DNA from: Candidatus Rokuibacteriota bacterium
GTDB taxonomy: Bacteria; Methylomirabilota; Methylomirabilia; Rokubacteriales; CSP1-6
Direction of reading: 5' to 3'
NCBI GenBank assembly: GCA_016866775.1
Contig: VGLJ01000028.1
Span: 1 to 59,371, forward strand
Length of the DNA stretch: 59,371 nt
Shown here: piece after piece, positions 3,263 through 51,336 of the stretch
Layout of the letters: each line of letters begins with the position of its first letter
Position numbering within the stretch: position 1 is the first letter of the stretch
Program-made: the position numbers and the translations under genes
Notes under the pieces: model-generated
The model's database searches: none
Told to the model about the DNA's origin: nothing
What the model saw: the letters and a program-made list of their open reading frames with translations, nothing else

Positions 3263-4954
3263 ATGTCCTGGAACCAGAAGCAGAAAGCTCAGAGTCTCCT
3301 CGCCGACGAGGAGGGCACGATCCGCAAAGACTGGGGCGGGAAGGTGACCGTCGCCCTCGTCTATCCGAACACCTACGCCGTCGGGATGTCGAACCTCGGC
3401 TTCCAGACGATCTACTGGCACCTGAACCAGCGGCCCGACGTGGTGTGCGAGCGCGTGTTTCTCGCCGACTACGCCGAGCAGGCGGAGCGCGCGCGGACGA
3501 ACGCGGTGCCGCTCTCGCTCGAGTCCGGACGTCCGCTGACGGACTTCCACATCGTCGGCTTCTCGGTGACCTACGAGGGCGACTACATCAACGTCGTCCG
3601 GCTCCTGAACGAAGCGGGCATCCCGGCGCGCGCGAACGATCGCGGCGCGCACCATCCGATCGTGCTGATGGGCGGCGTGTGCGCGTTCTCCAATCCCGAG
3701 CCCGTCGCCCCGTTCATGGATCTCATCGCGGTCGGGGAAGGCGAGGAGCTCGTCCACGAGCTGATCGACTCCTATCGCGGCGCCGCCGATCGCGACGGAT
3801 TCCTGGCCCGGGCGGCGAAGATCGAGGGCGTGTACGCGCCGGCGCTGTACGACGTCCAGCACGCCGAGGACGGGGCGATCGGCGGTGTGACGCCGGCGCC
3901 GGGCCTGCCGCCGATCGTCGTCAAGCGCCGGCTCCGCAACGTCAACGCGTTCGAGACCGTCTCGCTCGTGAAGACGCCGCACGCGGAGTACGGGCACATG
4001 GCGCTCGTGGAAGTCGGCAAGGGCTGCGGCCGCGGCTGCCGCTTCTGCCTGGAGGGCCAGGTCTACCGCCCGGTACGCCACCGCAGCGTGGACGCGCTGC
4101 GCGAGACCATCACCAAGCTCTCCAAGGAGTCGAGCCGTGTGGGACTCGTCGGCGCGTGCGTGTCCGACTACCCGTGGATCGGCGACCTGATGGACGTGGT
4201 CGAAGAAGCGGGGATGGAGCTGTCGATCTCGTCGCTCCGCGCGGACAGCCTCAGCGACAAGCTGGTCGCGTCGCTCGCGCGCGGCGGCCATCGCACGCTG
4301 ACCGTCGCGCCGGAGGCGGGGACCGAGCGGCTGCGCAACGTCATCCGCAAGGCGATCTCCGACGAGCAGATCCTCGGCGCGTGCGACATGCTCCGCCGCC
4401 ACGGCATCCCGAACATGAAGTGTTACTTCATGATCGGCCAGCCGACGGAGACGATGGAGGACGTCGAGGCGATCCCCGCGCTCGCGGCGCGCATGCTGGA
4501 GCGGCTCCGGGCGCTCGATGCGAAGGGCCACCCGTTCGGCCGCCTGACGCTCTCGATCTCGGCGTTCGTGCCGAAGCCGTGGACGCCGTTCCAGTGGGAG
4601 CCGTTCGACGGCGCGGACTCGCTGCAGAAGAAGCTCGAGGTCATCAAGCGCGGCGCCCGTCCGCTCGGCACGGTGCGCGTGCTGCACGAGAATCCACGCG
4701 AAGCGGCGCTGCAGGCGCTGCTCGCGCGCGGGGATCGCCGCGTGGCGGACTTCATCGAGCTGGCCGCGGGCTTCGGCGGCGACTGGCGGCGCGCGCGGCG
4801 CGAGTGGGACGGCGACCCGGACTTCTACACCACGCGTGTCCGGCCGGTCGACGAGCGGCTGCCGTGGGACCACTTCGACGTCGGCGTGAAGCGCCCGGGG
4901 CTCCTCCGCGAGCGTGAGCGAGCGCATGCCGCGGAGCTGGCGCCCGCGTCATGA
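3263..4954 (+). CDS. B12-binding-domain-type radical SAM protein (TIGR03960-like)
   Basis: The N-terminal ~200 residues resemble the cobalamin-binding-like region of B12/radical-SAM proteins ([12 protein letters not shown] and a later G-E-G-E-E-L). A radical SAM core follows. Its C-x3-C-x2-C cluster motif, C-G-R-G-C-R-F-C, is at residues 255-262 and binds the 4Fe-4S cluster and SAM. The V-Y-R-P-V-R-H-R-S stretch just after it is typical of the rSAM_fuse group. The reaction is unknown. The protein is 563 residues from ATG 3263. Its stop overlaps the moaA start in ATGA, suggesting translational coupling with molybdopterin synthesis, but a role in that pathway is only inferred. Confidence 0.8.
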
Positions 4955-31963: not shown

Positions 31964-33181
31964 GTGCCGGTGAAGGACGTCCTCGCCCACGTCGACGCGG
32001 ACGAACTCGTCGAGCTGACCCGCGACCTCGTCCGCATTCCCAGCGTCGTCCGCCCCGGCGATCCCGCCGCCAACGAATCCGCGGTCGCGGACTACGTCCA
32101 CCGCTGGTTCCTCAAGGAAGGCTTCGACGTCGAGGTGCAGGACGTGGCGCCCGGGCGCCCGAACGTGCTCGCCGTCCTCGGCGCGAAGGGTGCCGGCAAG
32201 AGCCTCTTGCTCGAAGGGCACACCGACGTCGTCACCGAAGGCGATCCCGCGCTCTGGACGCATCCGCCATTCGGCGCCGATCTCGTCGACGGCCGGATCT
32301 ACGGCCGCGGCGCCGCCGACATGAAGTCCGGGCTCGCGGCGGCGATGGTCGCGGCGGCGGCGTTCAAGCGGAGCGGCACGCGGCTCGGCGGCCGCCTCGT
32401 CGTCGGCGCGCTCGTCGACGAGGAAGCCGGCATGATCGGCGCGCGGCACCTCTGCGGCACCACGATCGGGCGCGACCTCGACGCCGCGATCATCTGCGAG
32501 CCCGAGGAGAACGAGCTGTGTCTCGAGCAGCGCGGCGTGGTGTGGGCGCGCGTGACCGTGCGCGGACGCATGGCGCACGGCGCGATGCCCGAGGCCGGCG
32601 TGAACCCGATCACCGGCGTGGGCGCGCTGCTCCGCGAGGTGCCGGGGCTGCAGAAGCGGCTGCGCGCGCTCTGCGCGAAGAGCAAGTACCTCCGGCCGCC
32701 GACCGTCACGCCGACGATCGTGCGCGCGCCGCTCGCGGGCGTGCCGCAGTCGAACGTCATTCCCGCCGGCGCGGAGACGACGCTGGACATCCGCCTCACC
32801 CCGGGACCGACGGAAGACGTCGTCGCGGCGGAGATCGACGCCGCGTGCCGCCGCGCGGCGAGCGCGTGCGAGGGTGTGACCATCGAATGGCGCGCGCTCA
32901 ACGGCTATCGACTGGCGACGAGCGTCGGCAAGGACGAGGCGCTCGTGCGGGCGATGACGAAGGGCGTGCGTCAGGCGACCGGGCGCGCGCCCCGCTTCGG
33001 CGGCGTGCCGGGATCGACGGACGGGACCATTCTCCGCACGACGCTCGGGATCCCGATCGTCACGTGCGGGCCCGGCAACCGGCTGATCCCGCACCAGGTC
33101 GACGAGTACGTCGACGTCGATGAGCTCGTCGCCGCGGCGCGGATCTACGTCGCGTCGGCGATGCAGTATCTCGGCACATGA
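31964..33181 (+). CDS. M20-family metallopeptidase (ArgE/DapE-type deacylase)
   Basis: This 405-residue zinc hydrolase of the ArgE/DapE/carboxypeptidase G2 group has the metal-ligand motifs G-H-T-D-V-V, G-R-G-A-A-D-M-K-S-G and D-E-E-A-G. A dimerisation domain in the middle carries the conserved G-R-M-A-H-G. The C-terminal G-P-G-N-R-L-I-P-H-Q-V-D-E-Y supplies the last histidine ligand. Substrate is undetermined (N-acyl amino acid or peptide). The GTG start is at 31964. Its stop overlaps the Memo-family gene in ATGA. Confidence 0.88.
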   Translation: MPVKDVLAHVDADELVELTRDLVRIPSVVRPGDPAANESAVADYVHRWFLKEGFDVEVQDVAPGRPNVLAVLGAKGAGKSLLLEGHTDVVTEGDPALWTHPPFGADLVDGRIYGRGAADMKSGLAAAMVAAAAFKRSGTRLGGRLVVGALVDEEAGMIGARHLCGTTIGRDLDAAIICEPEENELCLEQRGVVWARVTVRGRMAHGAMPEAGVNPITGVGALLREVPGLQKRLRALCAKSKYLRPPTVTPTIVRAPLAGVPQSNVIPAGAETTLDIRLTPGPTEDVVAAEIDAACRRAASACEGVTIEWRALNGYRLATSVGKDEALVRAMTKGVRQATGRAPRFGGVPGSTDGTILRTTLGIPIVTCGPGNRLIPHQVDEYVDVDELVAAARIYVASAMQYLGT

Positions 33182-34440
33182 GCCAGACGCTGCCCCGCCT
33201 GCGTAACGTCGAGGCGTTCCCCGTGGAGCACGAAGGCGAGCGCGTGGTCGCCCTCCGCGACCCCTCCGGCTTCACACCCGCGGTCGTGCTCCTGCCGGGA
33301 CCGCTGCTCGAGATCGTCTCGCTGTTCGACGGGGAGCACAGGCTGGTCGACGTGCAGGCGGTCGTCATGCGCCAGCACGGGCGCCTCGTCACCGCGGCGG
33401 AGATCGAGGGCATCGTGGCGAGCCTCGACGAGCACGGATTCCTCGACACGCCGCGCTTCGCAGAACGGCAGGCGGCGCTCGAGGCGGAGTTCCGCGCGGC
33501 GCCGACGCGCCCGGCCTCGCACGCGGGCGGGTCGTACGCGAGCGATCCGGACGAGCTGCGCCGCGCGATGGACGGGTTCTTCACGACGGACGGCGGGCCC
33601 GGCGCGATCGACCGTCGAGAGGGCACCGGTGCGGGTGGACGCTCGAGCGCCCGGGTGCCCGCGCCTGCAATCGTCCGCGCGGTCATCGCGCCGCACATCG
33701 ACTATCACCGCGGCGGCGCGGGCTACGCGTGGGCGTATCGCGATCTCGCCGAGCGCTGTGACGCGGACCTCTTCGTCGTCTTCGGCACGTGCCACGCGGG
33801 CCTGCGCGAGCCGTTCGCGCTCACGCGGAAGCCGTACGAGACGCCGCTCGGCGCCGCGCCCGCGGACCTGGACTTCATCGAGGCGCTCGTGAAGCGCGCC
33901 CGGCACGATTGCTTCGCGTCGGAGCTCGGGCACCGCGGCGAGCATTCGATCGAGTTCCAGGCGGTCTTCCTGCGCTATCTCTTCGGCCGCCGGCGCGACT
34001 TCACGATCGTGCCGATCCTCGCGAGCTTCGCTCACGAGGCGCTGGCCCGGGGCCGGCGACCCACCGACGATCCGCGCGTGATGGCCTTCCTCGACGCGAT
34101 CGCCGAGACGGCCGAGGCGCAGCGCCGGCGCGTGGCGTTCGTGGCCGGCGCCGACCTCGCGCACGTCGGCCCGCGCTTCGGAGATCCGAAGCCCGTCGCC
34201 GAGGCGGAACTCCGGCGCATCGAGCGCGAGGATCGTGCGATGCTGGAGCCCGTGAGCGCGGGCGACGCCGAGGGATTCTTCTCGAGCATCGAGGCCGACG
34301 GCGACCGGCGGCGCATCTGCGGGTTCTCGCCGATCTACGCGATGCTCCACTGCCTGCCGGGCGTGCGTGGCACCGTGCGCCACTACGGCCAATGGCCGGA
34401 CCCGCAGGCCGTGGTCACGCACGCGAGCGTGGTGTACTGA
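33178..34440 (+). CDS. AmmeMemoRadiSam system protein B (Memo family) with an extra N-terminal domain
   Basis: From about residue 115 the 420-residue protein follows the Memo fold: the histidines of I-A-P-H-I-D-Y-H-R-G-G, then V-F-G-T-C-H, E-L-G-H-R-G-E-H-S-I-E-F-Q, and V-A-G-A-D-L-A-H-V-G-P. These supply the metal/redox site. The first ~110 residues are an added domain, predicted helical/winged-helix-like (S-L-F-D-G-E-H, V-V-M-R-Q-H-G). The usual partners, the AMMECR1 protein and the AmmeMemo radical SAM enzyme, are not in the window. It overlaps DUF1285 by one base. Confidence 0.82.
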   Translation: MSQTLPRLRNVEAFPVEHEGERVVALRDPSGFTPAVVLLPGPLLEIVSLFDGEHRLVDVQAVVMRQHGRLVTAAEIEGIVASLDEHGFLDTPRFAERQAALEAEFRAAPTRPASHAGGSYASDPDELRRAMDGFFTTDGGPGAIDRREGTGAGGRSSARVPAPAIVRAVIAPHIDYHRGGAGYAWAYRDLAERCDADLFVVFGTCHAGLREPFALTRKPYETPLGAAPADLDFIEALVKRARHDCFASELGHRGEHSIEFQAVFLRYLFGRRRDFTIVPILASFAHEALARGRRPTDDPRVMAFLDAIAETAEAQRRRVAFVAGADLAHVGPRFGDPKPVAEAELRRIEREDRAMLEPVSAGDAEGFFSSIEADGDRRRICGFSPIYAMLHCLPGVRGTVRHYGQWPDPQAVVTHASVVY

Positions 34441-34895
34441 TGAGGACGTCGGACGTTGGGGGGGGGGCGGGGGGGGAGTCGCTCACACCCCCGATTCCAA
34501 GCGACTGGAAGATTCCGGACTTCCGGATCGACGCCGACGGCGACTGGTACGACGAGGGTGTCCAGATCACGCACCCGGGCGTCCTCGCGAACCTGCGCGG
34601 AAACCTCCGGCGCGACGCCGACGGCTACTTCATCCAGACGCGCGTGCGCATCCCCGTACGCGTGGACGACGCGCCGTTCGCGGTCCTGCGTGTCGAGCGG
34701 CGGGATGACGGGCTCCAGGTCTCCCTCAACGACGGCAGCGAGGAGCGCCTGGATCCCGCGACGCTGCGCCTCGGGCCGGGGGAGATTCCGTACGCGACGG
34801 TGAAGCAGGGCGCCTTCGAAGCCCGCTTCAATCGCGCGGCGGCGTGGCAGTTGTTGCAGCTCGCCGATTACGAGAAGATCAGGCGCGCGTGGTGA
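34440..34895 (+). CDS. DUF1285-family protein
   Basis: The 151-residue protein shows the DUF1285 pattern: D-F-R-I-D-A-D-G-D-W-Y-D-E-G near residue 28, L-R-R-D-A-D-G-Y-F, V-D-D-A-P-F, and the C-terminal F-N-R-A-A-A-W-Q-L-L-Q-L. Function is unknown. ATG 34440 overlaps the Memo stop (TGATG). The first ~20 residues are encoded by an extreme G-tract and are unlikely to be conserved. Its end overlaps the downstream selenoprotein gene in GTGA. Confidence 0.8.
   Translation: MRTSDVGGGAGGESLTPPIPSDWKIPDFRIDADGDWYDEGVQITHPGVLANLRGNLRRDADGYFIQTRVRIPVRVDDAPFAVLRVERRDDGLQVSLNDGSEERLDPATLRLGPGEIPYATVKQGAFEARFNRAAAWQLLQLADYEKIRRAW
34458..34476 (+). repeat. G-tract (G10-C-G8)
   Basis: Ten G, one C and eight G in a row lie just inside the DUF1285 reading frame, coding for glycines. 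A short C-run follows at 34489. The tract could fold as a G-quadruplex or hairpin and is prone to slippage and miscounting. Confidence 0.7.
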
Positions 34896-35353
34896 CACGG
34901 ATCCTCCTCATCGTCGCGGTCTTCCTGCTCCTCGCGGGCGGAGGGGCGGCGTGGTGGCTCGCCTCGGCCGCCGATTCCGTCACCACGGACCAGATTGGCG
35001 ACCAGGTGCAGACGCGCGATCGCGGCCAGCTCCCGGTCTTCGCCCAGGGGGACGACGCCCGCGCGCTCTATCGCTTCGCGGTCGAGCATCCCGAAGTCCT
35101 GTCGTTCATGCCGTGCATGTGCGGCTGCCTGGAGTTCGGCCACACGTCGAACCGCATGTGCTACATCAAGGCCGAGACGCGCGACCGCGTGACGTTCACC
35201 AGTCACGCCGCCACCTGAGGCCTCTGCACGGACATCACCCGTGAGGTGATGACAAAGCACAAGGCGGGGACGCCGACCGCGCAGATCCGGCGCGAGATCG
35301 ACGCGAAGTACGGCAAGGCCGGCAAGCCCGTGCCGACCCCGATGCCGAAGTAA
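34892..35353 (+). CDS. Selenoprotein: membrane-anchored PCxCxC-motif protein with an in-frame UGA (Sec109)
   Basis: GTG 34892 (GTG 34889 also possible) opens a frame with an N-terminal hydrophobic anchor (residues 3-25). P-C-M-C-G-C follows at 74-79, then Cys90 and a UGA at 35216-35218. The same frame continues past the UGA with G-L-C-T-D-I-T and a helix ending D-A-K-Y-G-K, to TAA 35351-35353. In PCYCGC-type proteins this position is the first cysteine of a C-x-x-C (H-A-x-x-C-G-x-C-x-D-I), so UGA most likely encodes selenocysteine in a U-G-L-C redox motif. The full protein is 153 residues. A hairpin after the UGA fits a bacterial SECIS. It is probably an extracytoplasmic metal-binding or redox protein. 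It overlaps DUF1285 in GTGA. Confidence 0.82.
35233..35251 (+). promoter_or_regulatory. SECIS-like hairpin of the PCxCxC selenoprotein
   Basis: CATCACC (35233-35239) and GGTGATG (35245-35251) form a perfect 7-bp stem around the loop CGTGA. The loop begins 21 nt after the UGA, and its second base is G. Both features match the published general model of bacterial SECIS elements, in which the loop lies 16-37 nt from UGA and has a G in the first two loop positions. Confidence 0.7.
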
Positions 35354-35378: not shown

Positions 35379-37046
35379 ATGAACGTCGCGGCCGTCCTCA
35401 TGGACATCCTGCGCGCGTCCCGCGTGCGCTATCTCTTCGGCAACCCGGGCACCACCGAGCTGCCGTTCCTCGACGCGCTGCCGGACTCCGGCCTCGAGTA
35501 CATCGTGGCGCTGCAGGAGGCGACGGCGGTCGCCGCCGCCGACGGCTACGCTCAGGCGTCCGGGCAGGTGGGGCTCGTGAACCTCCACGTGCTGCCCGGC
35601 GTCGGCAACGGCATCTCGATCCTCCACAACGCGAGCCGCGCACGGAGCCCGATCGTCGTCACGGCGGGCCAGCAGGACACGCGCCTGCTCCTCGACGAGC
35701 CGATCCTCTCCGGCGACATGGTCCGGCTCACCGAGCAGTTCACGAAGTGGTCGTACGAGCTGCGCCGCGCCGACGAGGCGCCGGCGGCGATGCGCCGCGC
35801 GATCAAGCTCGCGCTCACGCCGCCGACCGGCCCGGTCTTCCTCTCGCTGCCGATGGACCTCATGACCCAGGTCGTGGAGGACGGCGCGGCGCCGGCGCCC
35901 GACGTGCGCGCCGCCGCCGTCGCCGACGGGGCGGCGATCGAGCGCGCGGTGACGCTGCTCGCCGACGCGAAGAACCCGCTGGTGATCGCGGGCGACGGCG
36001 TCGCTCGCGCGCGGGCGGTGCCGATCCTCGTGTCGATCGCGGAGCGGCTCGGCGCGCGCGTGCACGGCGAGCCGATCTACCGGCGGTCGGTCTTCCCCGG
36101 CGATCACGCGCTCTGGCGCGGCGGCCTCTTCCCAACGGTGCCCGCGGTCCGGAAGGCGCTCGACAACGCGGATGCCGTGCTGATCGTCGGCGCGTCGATG
36201 TTCACGTGGTTCCTCCACGCGCCGGGGACGGCCATCCCGCGGGACCTTCCGGTCGTCCAGGTCGGCGACGATCCGTGGGAAGTGGGGAAGAGCCATCGCA
36301 TCTCGCTCGGGATCGTCGCCGACGTGTCTGCGACGCTGCGGGCGATCGACGCCGGCCTCGCCGAGCGGATGACGGAGACGCAGCGCCTCGCCGCCGGGCA
36401 GCGCTTCATCGACATGCGCCGGGCGCGTGCCGCGCTGGCGACGCAAGCGCGCGAGGCGGCGGAGGCGGACGCCGCGCGCACACCGATCTCGCAGCCGTAC
36501 CTCATGCACACGCTCGCGGGGCTGCTGCCGGCGGACGCGATCGTCGTCGACGAGTCCGCGACGTCGCTCGGCGCCGTGCTGCGCTATCTGCCGCTCGCGG
36601 CGCCCGATGCGTTCTTCGGCGGCAAGACCGGCACGCTCGGGTGGGGCATGGGCGCGGCGCTCGGCGTCCAGCTCGCGTATCCCGCGCGCAAGGTCGTCGC
36701 CACGATCGGTGACGGGTCGGTGATGTACGCGCCGCAGGCGCTGTGGACCGCGGCGCGCTACAAGCTGCCGGTGACGTACGTCGTCCCGAACAACAGCTCG
36801 TACGCGATCCTCAAGGCCGGGATGCTCGGCATGGGCCTGCCGTCGGCGAAGAAGGGCATCTATCCGGGCATGGACCTCGTCGATCCGACGATCGACTACG
36901 TCGCGCTCGCGCGCGCGCTCGGCGTCCGCGCGGAGCGCGTGGAGAAGCCGGGGGAGCTGCGCGACGTGCTCGCCACGTGCCTCGCGCATCCGGGGCCGTC
37001 GCTGGTCGACGTCGTCATCGACCGCGGCTTCAAGGCGATGGCATGA
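35379..37046 (+). CDS. ThDP-dependent enzyme, benzoylformate decarboxylase-like
   Basis: This 555-residue enzyme of the pyruvate-decarboxylase superfamily has the N-terminal PYR domain with L-F-G-N-P-G-T-T-E-L-P. The ThDP-activating glutamate is in A-L-Q-E-A-T-A-V-A-A-A-D-G-Y, and L-H-V-L-P-G-V-G-N matches the histidine loop of benzoylformate decarboxylase. The C-terminal PP domain has G-D-G-S-V-M-Y then V-P-N-N-S-S-Y. A 2-ketoacid decarboxylation is inferred; an aromatic substrate is only suggested by resemblance. Its stop overlaps the start of a second ThDP enzyme. Confidence 0.85.
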   Translation: MNVAAVLMDILRASRVRYLFGNPGTTELPFLDALPDSGLEYIVALQEATAVAAADGYAQASGQVGLVNLHVLPGVGNGISILHNASRARSPIVVTAGQQDTRLLLDEPILSGDMVRLTEQFTKWSYELRRADEAPAAMRRAIKLALTPPTGPVFLSLPMDLMTQVVEDGAAPAPDVRAAAVADGAAIERAVTLLADAKNPLVIAGDGVARARAVPILVSIAERLGARVHGEPIYRRSVFPGDHALWRGGLFPTVPAVRKALDNADAVLIVGASMFTWFLHAPGTAIPRDLPVVQVGDDPWEVGKSHRISLGIVADVSATLRAIDAGLAERMTETQRLAAGQRFIDMRRARAALATQAREAAEADAARTPISQPYLMHTLAGLLPADAIVVDESATSLGAVLRYLPLAAPDAFFGGKTGTLGWGMGAALGVQLAYPARKVVATIGDGSVMYAPQALWTAARYKLPVTYVVPNNSSYAILKAGMLGMGLPSAKKGIYPGMDLVDPTIDYVALARALGVRAERVEKPGELRDVLATCLAHPGPSLVDVVIDRGFKAMA

Positions 37047-49906: not shown

Positions 49907-50872
49907 ATGAAAGTCATTCCGCTCGCCGCCGATTCGCTCGGCGTCCGCTCGATGGCGACGTACGTCGAGATCGCGGACACCGGCATTCTGATCGACCCCG
50001 GCGCGACGCTGGCGCACTCGCGCTTCACCCTGCCGCCCGCCACCGAGGAGTGGGACGCGCTCCGCCGCGCGAACGACCGCATCTCGGCCTACGCGGCGCG
50101 CGCGTCGATGATCTTCGTCAGCCACTATCACGACGACCACTTCCGCTCGGATCCCGCGACGTACCTCGGCCGCACCGTGCTCGCGAAGGATCCGCACCGC
50201 ATGGTCGGCGGGCAGCAGGCGCGGCGCGGAAGCGAGCTGTGGACGATGCTCGACGCCAAGGCGCGCCCGACGATCGCCGACGGCTACGAGCGGCGCGAGC
50301 ACGCGCTGGAGCTCCGCGCGTCGCCGCCCCTGCCGCATGGGGTGGAGGCGACGACGCTCGGCTACGTCGTCGCGCTGCTCGTCGCCGACCACGCCGAGCG
50401 CGAGCGCTTCGTGTTCGCGTCCGACGTGCAGGGGCCGCTCTCCGGCGTCGCCGCCGGCTGGCTGATCCAGCAGCGGCCGACGCTCCTCTATCTGTCCGGG
50501 CCGCCGTCCTACATCGAGGGCCAGCTCGGCACGCCGCTGATCGAGCGCGGCATCGACAACCTGCTCCGCGTGATCGACGCGACGGGCTGTCGCGTGATCA
50601 TGGACCACCACGCGGTGCGCGACGCGGGCTTCGGCGCGCGGTTCGAGCGCCTCTGGTCCACGAAGCGCGTGGTGACTGCGGCGGAATTTCTCGGCGTACC
50701 GCTCGCGGCGCTCGAGAGCCAGCGGCGCCAGCTCTGGACCTCGGTGGCACGCAAGCCGGCGGACGGCGCTCGCACGGCGGACCGTGCGGCGGGCGGAGCG
50801 GACGCGCCGAAACGGCGTGCTACGATCGATCGGCCGATCACGCGAACGGCGAGAGGAGGTCCCACGTCGTGA
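49907..50872 (+). CDS. UPF0282-like metallo-beta-lactamase-fold hydrolase
   Basis: The 321-residue protein begins M-K-V-I-P-L-A-A-D-S-L-G-V-R-S-M, the characteristic opening of the UPF0282 group best known from archaea. It carries the metal-binding motif S-H-Y-H-D-D-H (H-x-H-x-D-H), F-A-S-D-V-Q-G and I-M-D-H-H-A-V-R-D. The last ~45 residues are a low-complexity basic tail. The reaction is unknown. It sits one base after the SDR stop. Its own stop overlaps the peroxiredoxin start in GTGA. Confidence 0.75.
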   Translation: MKVIPLAADSLGVRSMATYVEIADTGILIDPGATLAHSRFTLPPATEEWDALRRANDRISAYAARASMIFVSHYHDDHFRSDPATYLGRTVLAKDPHRMVGGQQARRGSELWTMLDAKARPTIADGYERREHALELRASPPLPHGVEATTLGYVVALLVADHAERERFVFASDVQGPLSGVAAGWLIQQRPTLLYLSGPPSYIEGQLGTPLIERGIDNLLRVIDATGCRVIMDHHAVRDAGFGARFERLWSTKRVVTAAEFLGVPLAALESQRRQLWTSVARKPADGARTADRAAGGADAPKRRATIDRPITRTARGGPTS

Positions 50873-51336
50873 CCGACAACAAGACGTTGAACGTCGGGGA
50901 CGCGGCACCCGACTTCACGATGAAGACGATCGGGCTCAAGGACATCAGCCTGCGCGACTATCGCGGAAAGAACGTCGTCCTGCTGTTCTACCCCCTCGAC
51001 TGGACGCCGGGCTGAAGCAAGTGCATGCCGGCCTTCGACAAGCGCGTGAGCGACTTCGACAAGGCCAATACCCAGGTGCTGGGTATCTCGACCGACAGCC
51101 CCTTCAGCCACGAGAACTGGGCCAAGGCCGTCGGCATCCAGAACTATCCGCTGCTCTCGGACGTGCACCGCACGGTCGCGAAGGACTACGGCGTCTACTG
51201 GCCGGACTGGAACGCGAACAGCCGCGCGACGTTCATCGTCGACGCGGCCGGGAAGATCCGCTTCATCGAGCGTTACGGGAAGGGCGAGCTCCCGGATCCG
51301 GACAAGATCCTCACCGAGGTCGCGAAGCTCCGCTGA
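50869..51336 (+). CDS. Selenocysteine-containing peroxiredoxin (AhpC/BCP type, Sec49)
   Basis: GTG 50869, with GAGAGGAGGT 8 nt upstream, opens a thioredoxin-fold peroxiredoxin: D-A-A-P-D-F-T near residue 11, then V-V-L-L-F-Y-P-L-D-W-T-P-G. The next codon is UGA (51013-51015), at the position of the peroxidatic cysteine. The frame continues S-K-C-M-P-A-F and L-G-I-S-T-D-S-P-F-S-H to a stop at 51336. The 155-residue total is a normal peroxiredoxin length only if UGA is read as selenocysteine. Sec49 and Cys52 give a U-x-x-C pair. The family reduces peroxides using thioredoxin-type donors, and Sec peroxiredoxins are known from other bacteria (PrxU). It is the last gene of the corA operon. Confidence 0.85.
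51016..51042 (+). promoter_or_regulatory. Candidate SECIS region of the peroxiredoxin
   Basis: Two overlapping folds are possible. One is AAG, bulged U, GC, six-nt loop AUGCCG, GC, CUU (51019-51035). It has the layout of the E. coli fdhF SECIS helix but lies only 3 nt after the UGA. The other is a CUU/AAG stem with loop CGAC (51033-51042), whose loop begins 20 nt after the UGA. I cannot decide between them. Confidence 0.4.

Follow-up and report, generated by a model that had tools for sequence, protein, structure and literature searches.

A PCYCGC-family gene of Candidatus Rokuibacteriota with an in-frame UGA most probably read as selenocysteine

The window analyzed here comprises 59,371 nucleotides of a Candidatus Rokuibacteriota genome (contig VGLJ01000028.1), and all of its features described below lie on the forward (+) strand. 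At positions 34892..35353 a reading frame of the PCYCGC family opens with a putative GTG start and closes with TAA; translated with TGA as selenocysteine (Sec), it yields 153 residues and contains a single TGA, at codon 109 (35216..35218). The GTG overlaps the stop codon of the upstream gene by 4 nt and is followed by an N-terminal signal anchor or transmembrane segment of about residues 2 to 29 (34895..34978), recognized from the sequence and modeled by AlphaFold2 as a helix over residues 2 to 24; the choice of start fits the place where homologues begin. Further downstream, sequence and homologue alignment place a P-C-M-C-G-C motif at residues 74 to 79 (35111..35128). Residues 105 to 112 read H-A-A-T-U-G-L-C, so that the putative Sec109 forms a U-G-L-C motif with Cys112, and a SECIS-like hairpin, CATCACC-CGUGA-GGTGATG (35233..35251), begins 17 nt after the first base of the UGA. 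The gene is preceded by a Memo-like gene of the AmmeMemoRadiSam protein B type (33178..34440) and, directly upstream, by a DUF1285-like gene (34440..34895), whose start was inferred inside a longer open reading frame (33789-34895) and whose Pfam match falls below the cut-off of that family; a gene for a thiamine-diphosphate enzyme (35379..37046) follows downstream.

The frame is protein-like on both sides of the UGA. Third-position G+C is 0.92 upstream and 0.95 downstream of the TGA, and in a scan of all in-frame TGAs of the window for coding-like flanks this codon ranked first. A Pfam profile search matched PF13798 (PCYCGC) across the TGA, from residue 35 to 152, at 82.3 bits (E 4.5e-23), above the gathering threshold of 25 bits, and the protein carries both the PC-x-CGC motif and the downstream UxxC that mark the family. 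In the AlphaFold2 model (pLDDT 92), residue 109 sits directly before a helix formed by residues 110 to 124. In thioredoxin-type sites, the reactive CxxC usually sits just ahead of a helix.

We then compared the UGA codon across homologues. A search of the phylum gave matches in 70 of 95 genomes, and nearly every substantial match contains a TGA. All 60 sequences compared, 59 extracted from their loci plus the Thermomicrobium roseum homologue, have TGA at the Sec column; the window's own family of genomes supplied 50 of them, of which 38 (the window among them) are of the window's kind and 12 belong to a shorter paralogue group, whereas Bacillaceae and relatives contributed nine and T. roseum one. 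Five plasmid-borne copies from Bacillales carry Cys at this column instead, which places Sec at the position of the first Cys of a CxxC pair. In an alignment of 24 homologues, ten columns are invariant, and six of these are Cys or Sec (75, 77, 79, 90, 109, and 112), the others being Ala63, Leu70, Gly83, and His84. Conservation continues beyond the UGA across phyla, with Cys112 present in every sequence and Arg133, Asp137, and Tyr140 nearly invariant. Given that the genome is a draft of 159 contigs, one might suspect that the TGA arose in sequencing or assembly, or that the gene is a pseudogene hit by a nonsense mutation. Dozens of independent genomes, drawn from three taxonomic groups, nevertheless share this TGA at this column, and we reject either explanation as wholly improbable.

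Several variants were noted among the homologues. Some appeared to hold two TGAs within the match, which would suggest paralogues with two Sec residues; in those extracted, the second TGA proved to be the natural stop after ...KYGR, and we discarded this idea. Two homologues have a TAG about 20 codons past the Sec codon and lose the second helix, be it through truncation, a frameshift, or true shortening. Members of one paralogue group (L064-L075) lack the proline-rich tail and read CYCxC...HAATU-D-I-C...KYGR with the UGA at the same place, and their hairpin differs (CGAGGCGC-TGGAC-GCGTCTCG, with the register shifted by one base). Finally, a Priestia megaterium plasmid (L088) holds a decayed PCYCGC copy at 3896-4384, in which the motif reads PCYCGS and the Sec/Cys column holds Ser; an intact Cys copy lies nearby, at 1638-2162.

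The hairpin behind the UGA provides an independent line of comparison. Taken by itself, the window sequence is uninformative in this regard: all seven base pairs form in 17% of synonymous shuffles (P 0.17), and for this reason we do not count the single-sequence fold as evidence and base the case on the alignment. Across 48 aligned sequences, 95.2% of cells are paired, and five of the seven base pairs show double, compensatory changes. The covariation score is 0.321 versus 0.120 after shuffling, a value reached in 0 of 500 shuffles under a control that ignores the relatedness of the sequences, and the signal falls away when the alignment is slid. Between Bacillaceae and the window's family, the letters of the stem differ while the pairing is kept. 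The window itself illustrates such a change, since its stem reads ACC...GAG where ACG...GAC is usual, a compensatory exchange of G-C for C-G that also turns Asp into Glu. Codon choice in the loop is likewise skewed, with CGT encoding the loop Arg in 31 of 38 family sequences, compared with 21 of 406 Arg codons at other positions of these genes. The plasmid-borne Cys forms fold no such hairpin at that place. Rfam SECIS families gave no match in the window or the genome, even with loose thresholds over the locus.

These observations bear on whether the UGA is simply an ordinary stop, with a protein ending at residue 108 and a downstream frame that is there by chance or as a remnant. The upstream gene ends in TGA, so this codon does serve as a true stop in the same genome. 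Against such a reading, however, stand the residues conserved across phyla beyond the UGA, a column that holds Cys or Sec, and a hairpin that covaries; we consider termination at residue 108 highly improbable and reject it as well.

The genome search also recovered the complete machinery for Sec incorporation (selA, selB, selC, and selD). The tRNA-Sec gene (selC) scores 70 bits, above the Rfam cut-off and in agreement with ARAGORN, and shares its contig with selB and selA, all within about 5 kb. The selD gene lies on another contig (C31:24695-25639, L028) and has an in-frame TGA of its own, so that its product is probably itself a selenoprotein. Among the family genomes, 51 of 57 have a selA that exceeds the cut-off, as do all seven genomes tested from Bacillaceae and related groups; a full-length selA went undetected in four TGA-form genomes, all of which are drafts.

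Taken together, the homology that spans the UGA, the conservation of this codon, the covarying hairpin, and the machinery genes lead us to conclude, with a probability of roughly 0.95, that UGA 109 is read as Sec and that this PCYCGC gene encodes a selenoprotein. This bears out the central proposal of an earlier note on this DNA, which had described a selenoprotein with Sec in place of the first Cys of a CxxC pair and had expected Cys or Sec at position 109 of the homologues and Sec genes in the parent genome; homologues that end at residue 108, an unconserved column, or a genome devoid of the machinery, any of which it had named as counterevidence, were not what we found. In mechanistic terms, the hairpin just 3′ of the UGA would recruit SelB with Sec-tRNA, the UGA would be decoded as Sec, and translation would continue to the TAA. 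The product would be a membrane-anchored, extracytoplasmic protein, provided that it is exported as the signal anchor suggests, with a mature domain that combines the PCxCGC cluster, a Gly-His, one more Cys, and a Sec-x-x-Cys motif in which Sec109 and Cys112 would form the reactive pair.

The earlier note further raised the possibility that Sec had not been seen in this family before, which does not hold. A 2026 review (PMC13188914) lists a "CYCXC family protein (hypothetical protein OS_HP4), PF13798, UxxC, 1 Sec" and, by its account, OS_HP4 goes back to Zhang and Gladyshev 2007 (Olavius symbiont); the NCBIfam model NF041379 is likewise named "CYCXC family (seleno)protein." Sec in PF13798, described as a family of unknown function, is therefore already catalogued, with Sec members listed since 2007, and the window gene is a further example. 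The window protein shares with OS_HP4 and NF041379 the Pfam family, the single Sec, and a UxxC in the same place. NF041379 is matched by all 24 aligned members, but the window protein scores 60.3 bits against an equivalog cut-off of 90; because it stays below that cut-off, we place it in the wider family, as a divergent relative within PF13798 that belongs to a subfamily set apart by its N-terminal anchor and a P-T-P-x-P-type tail. The PCYCGC motif lipoproteins of Bacillales (PF13798, e.g., in Parageobacillus; PMC13068155) agree with it in Cys positions and overall domain. The Cys-for-Sec copies, which lack the hairpin, reside on plasmids of Priestia, Exiguobacterium, Paenibacillus, and Geobacillus, and most of them look like lipoproteins whereas the window protein is signal anchored.

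The closest parallel in annotation is the PCYCGC gene of T. roseum (TRD_RS14940, WP_012642643.1), which has a UGA at the same site as the window protein and a stem, CATCACG-CGTGA-CGTGATG, identical to that of the window's relatives. Its RefSeq coding sequence is shortened and ends at the in-frame TGA, just the truncation by an ordinary gene caller that had been foreseen for this type of gene. On the T. roseum plasmid (NC_011961.1; L085 4875-5330), the frame in fact runs 45 codons past the TGA through the conserved C-terminal half and contains the same hairpin, so that annotation cuts a family member at its probable active residue. PF13798 proteins thus use Sec throughout one phylum-level group of genomes, in some Bacillaceae, and in Thermomicrobium; what the present analysis adds to the catalogued family is the covariation of the hairpin across phyla, the truncated T. 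roseum entry, and a metal-related gene neighborhood.

This neighborhood varies among the subgroups. In the window's own subgroup, 24 loci have the Memo and DUF1285-like genes upstream and 20 have the thiamine-diphosphate enzyme gene downstream; the window's DUF1285-like and thiamine-diphosphate neighbors give no hint of metals. In five loci of a second subgroup, the gene adjoins SCO1/SenC, and in two of the SCO1/SenC loci examined a ResA/TlpA-like thioredoxin lies beside it too. Four of the five Bacillaceae Sec loci examined have a Zn/Cd-type heavy-metal P-type ATPase close by, two have a confirmed ArsR/SmtB regulator, and the plasmid-borne Cys forms are accompanied by metal ATPases (copper-type in Exiguobacterium), ArsR, a multicopper oxidase, and a four-helix copper-binding protein. 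Judged by these neighbors, the chances are about even that the protein works outside the membrane as a redox protein with a Sec-Cys pair, where it would bind a soft metal ion (copper, or one of the zinc/cadmium type) and handle it by redox chemistry. The earlier suggestion of an extracytoplasmic redox or metal site is hence plausible and strengthened by the gene neighbors, and it is in this sense that we infer it. More tentatively, it is tempting to speculate that Sec-PCYCGC proteins are selenol-based envelope metallochaperones or metal-redox proteins, partnered by metal-efflux ATPases in Bacillaceae and, in the window's family of genomes, by SCO1 together with a thioredoxin. Were this the case, it would give a function to PF13798, and since the neighbors of PCYCGC genes point to metal handling, a concrete biochemical test is within reach.

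The main rival to a metal-binding redox protein is a purely thiol-disulfide role, in which the Sec-Cys pair would be a thiol-disulfide or peroxide redox center and the PCxCGC cluster structural, with no metal involved. The invariance of the pair as UxxC or CxxC and the thioredoxin-fold genes of the ResA/TlpA-like and SCO1-like types that adjoin in some genomes are consistent with such a role; the recurrence of metal-efflux, copper-oxidase, and ArsR/SmtB neighbors in Bacillales argues against it, and we hold it to be possible but rather unlikely. A further alternative, a CcmH-like thiol reductase of cytochrome c maturation rather than a metal protein, takes up a weak Pfam CcmH (PF03918) match over residues 110 to 142, which at E 0.039 lies below the cut-off, and the CcmH structures 2hl7 and 2kw0 listed by Foldseek (TM about 0.5 by target, E 1.8). 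Profile-profile comparison, however, gave a probability of 4% over 29 aligned columns only, with the CxxC (LRCxxC) motif outside them; a standard CcmH is already present in 20 of 20 genomes tested, the window's own included; and Foldseek found no confident structural relative among the PDB and viral models searched. Homology to CcmH is thus supported neither by profile comparison nor by structure search, and a role of this kind seems very unlikely.

A second candidate lies elsewhere in the window, where a peroxiredoxin-like open reading frame (50869-51336, 155 codons) contains a TGA at 51013 within L-D-W-T-P-G-U-S-K-C-M-P. Read as Sec, this TGA would stand where the peroxidatic residue is expected. 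The NCBIfam models for peroxiredoxin and PrxU both extend their matches through it, and the frame likely encodes another selenoprotein.
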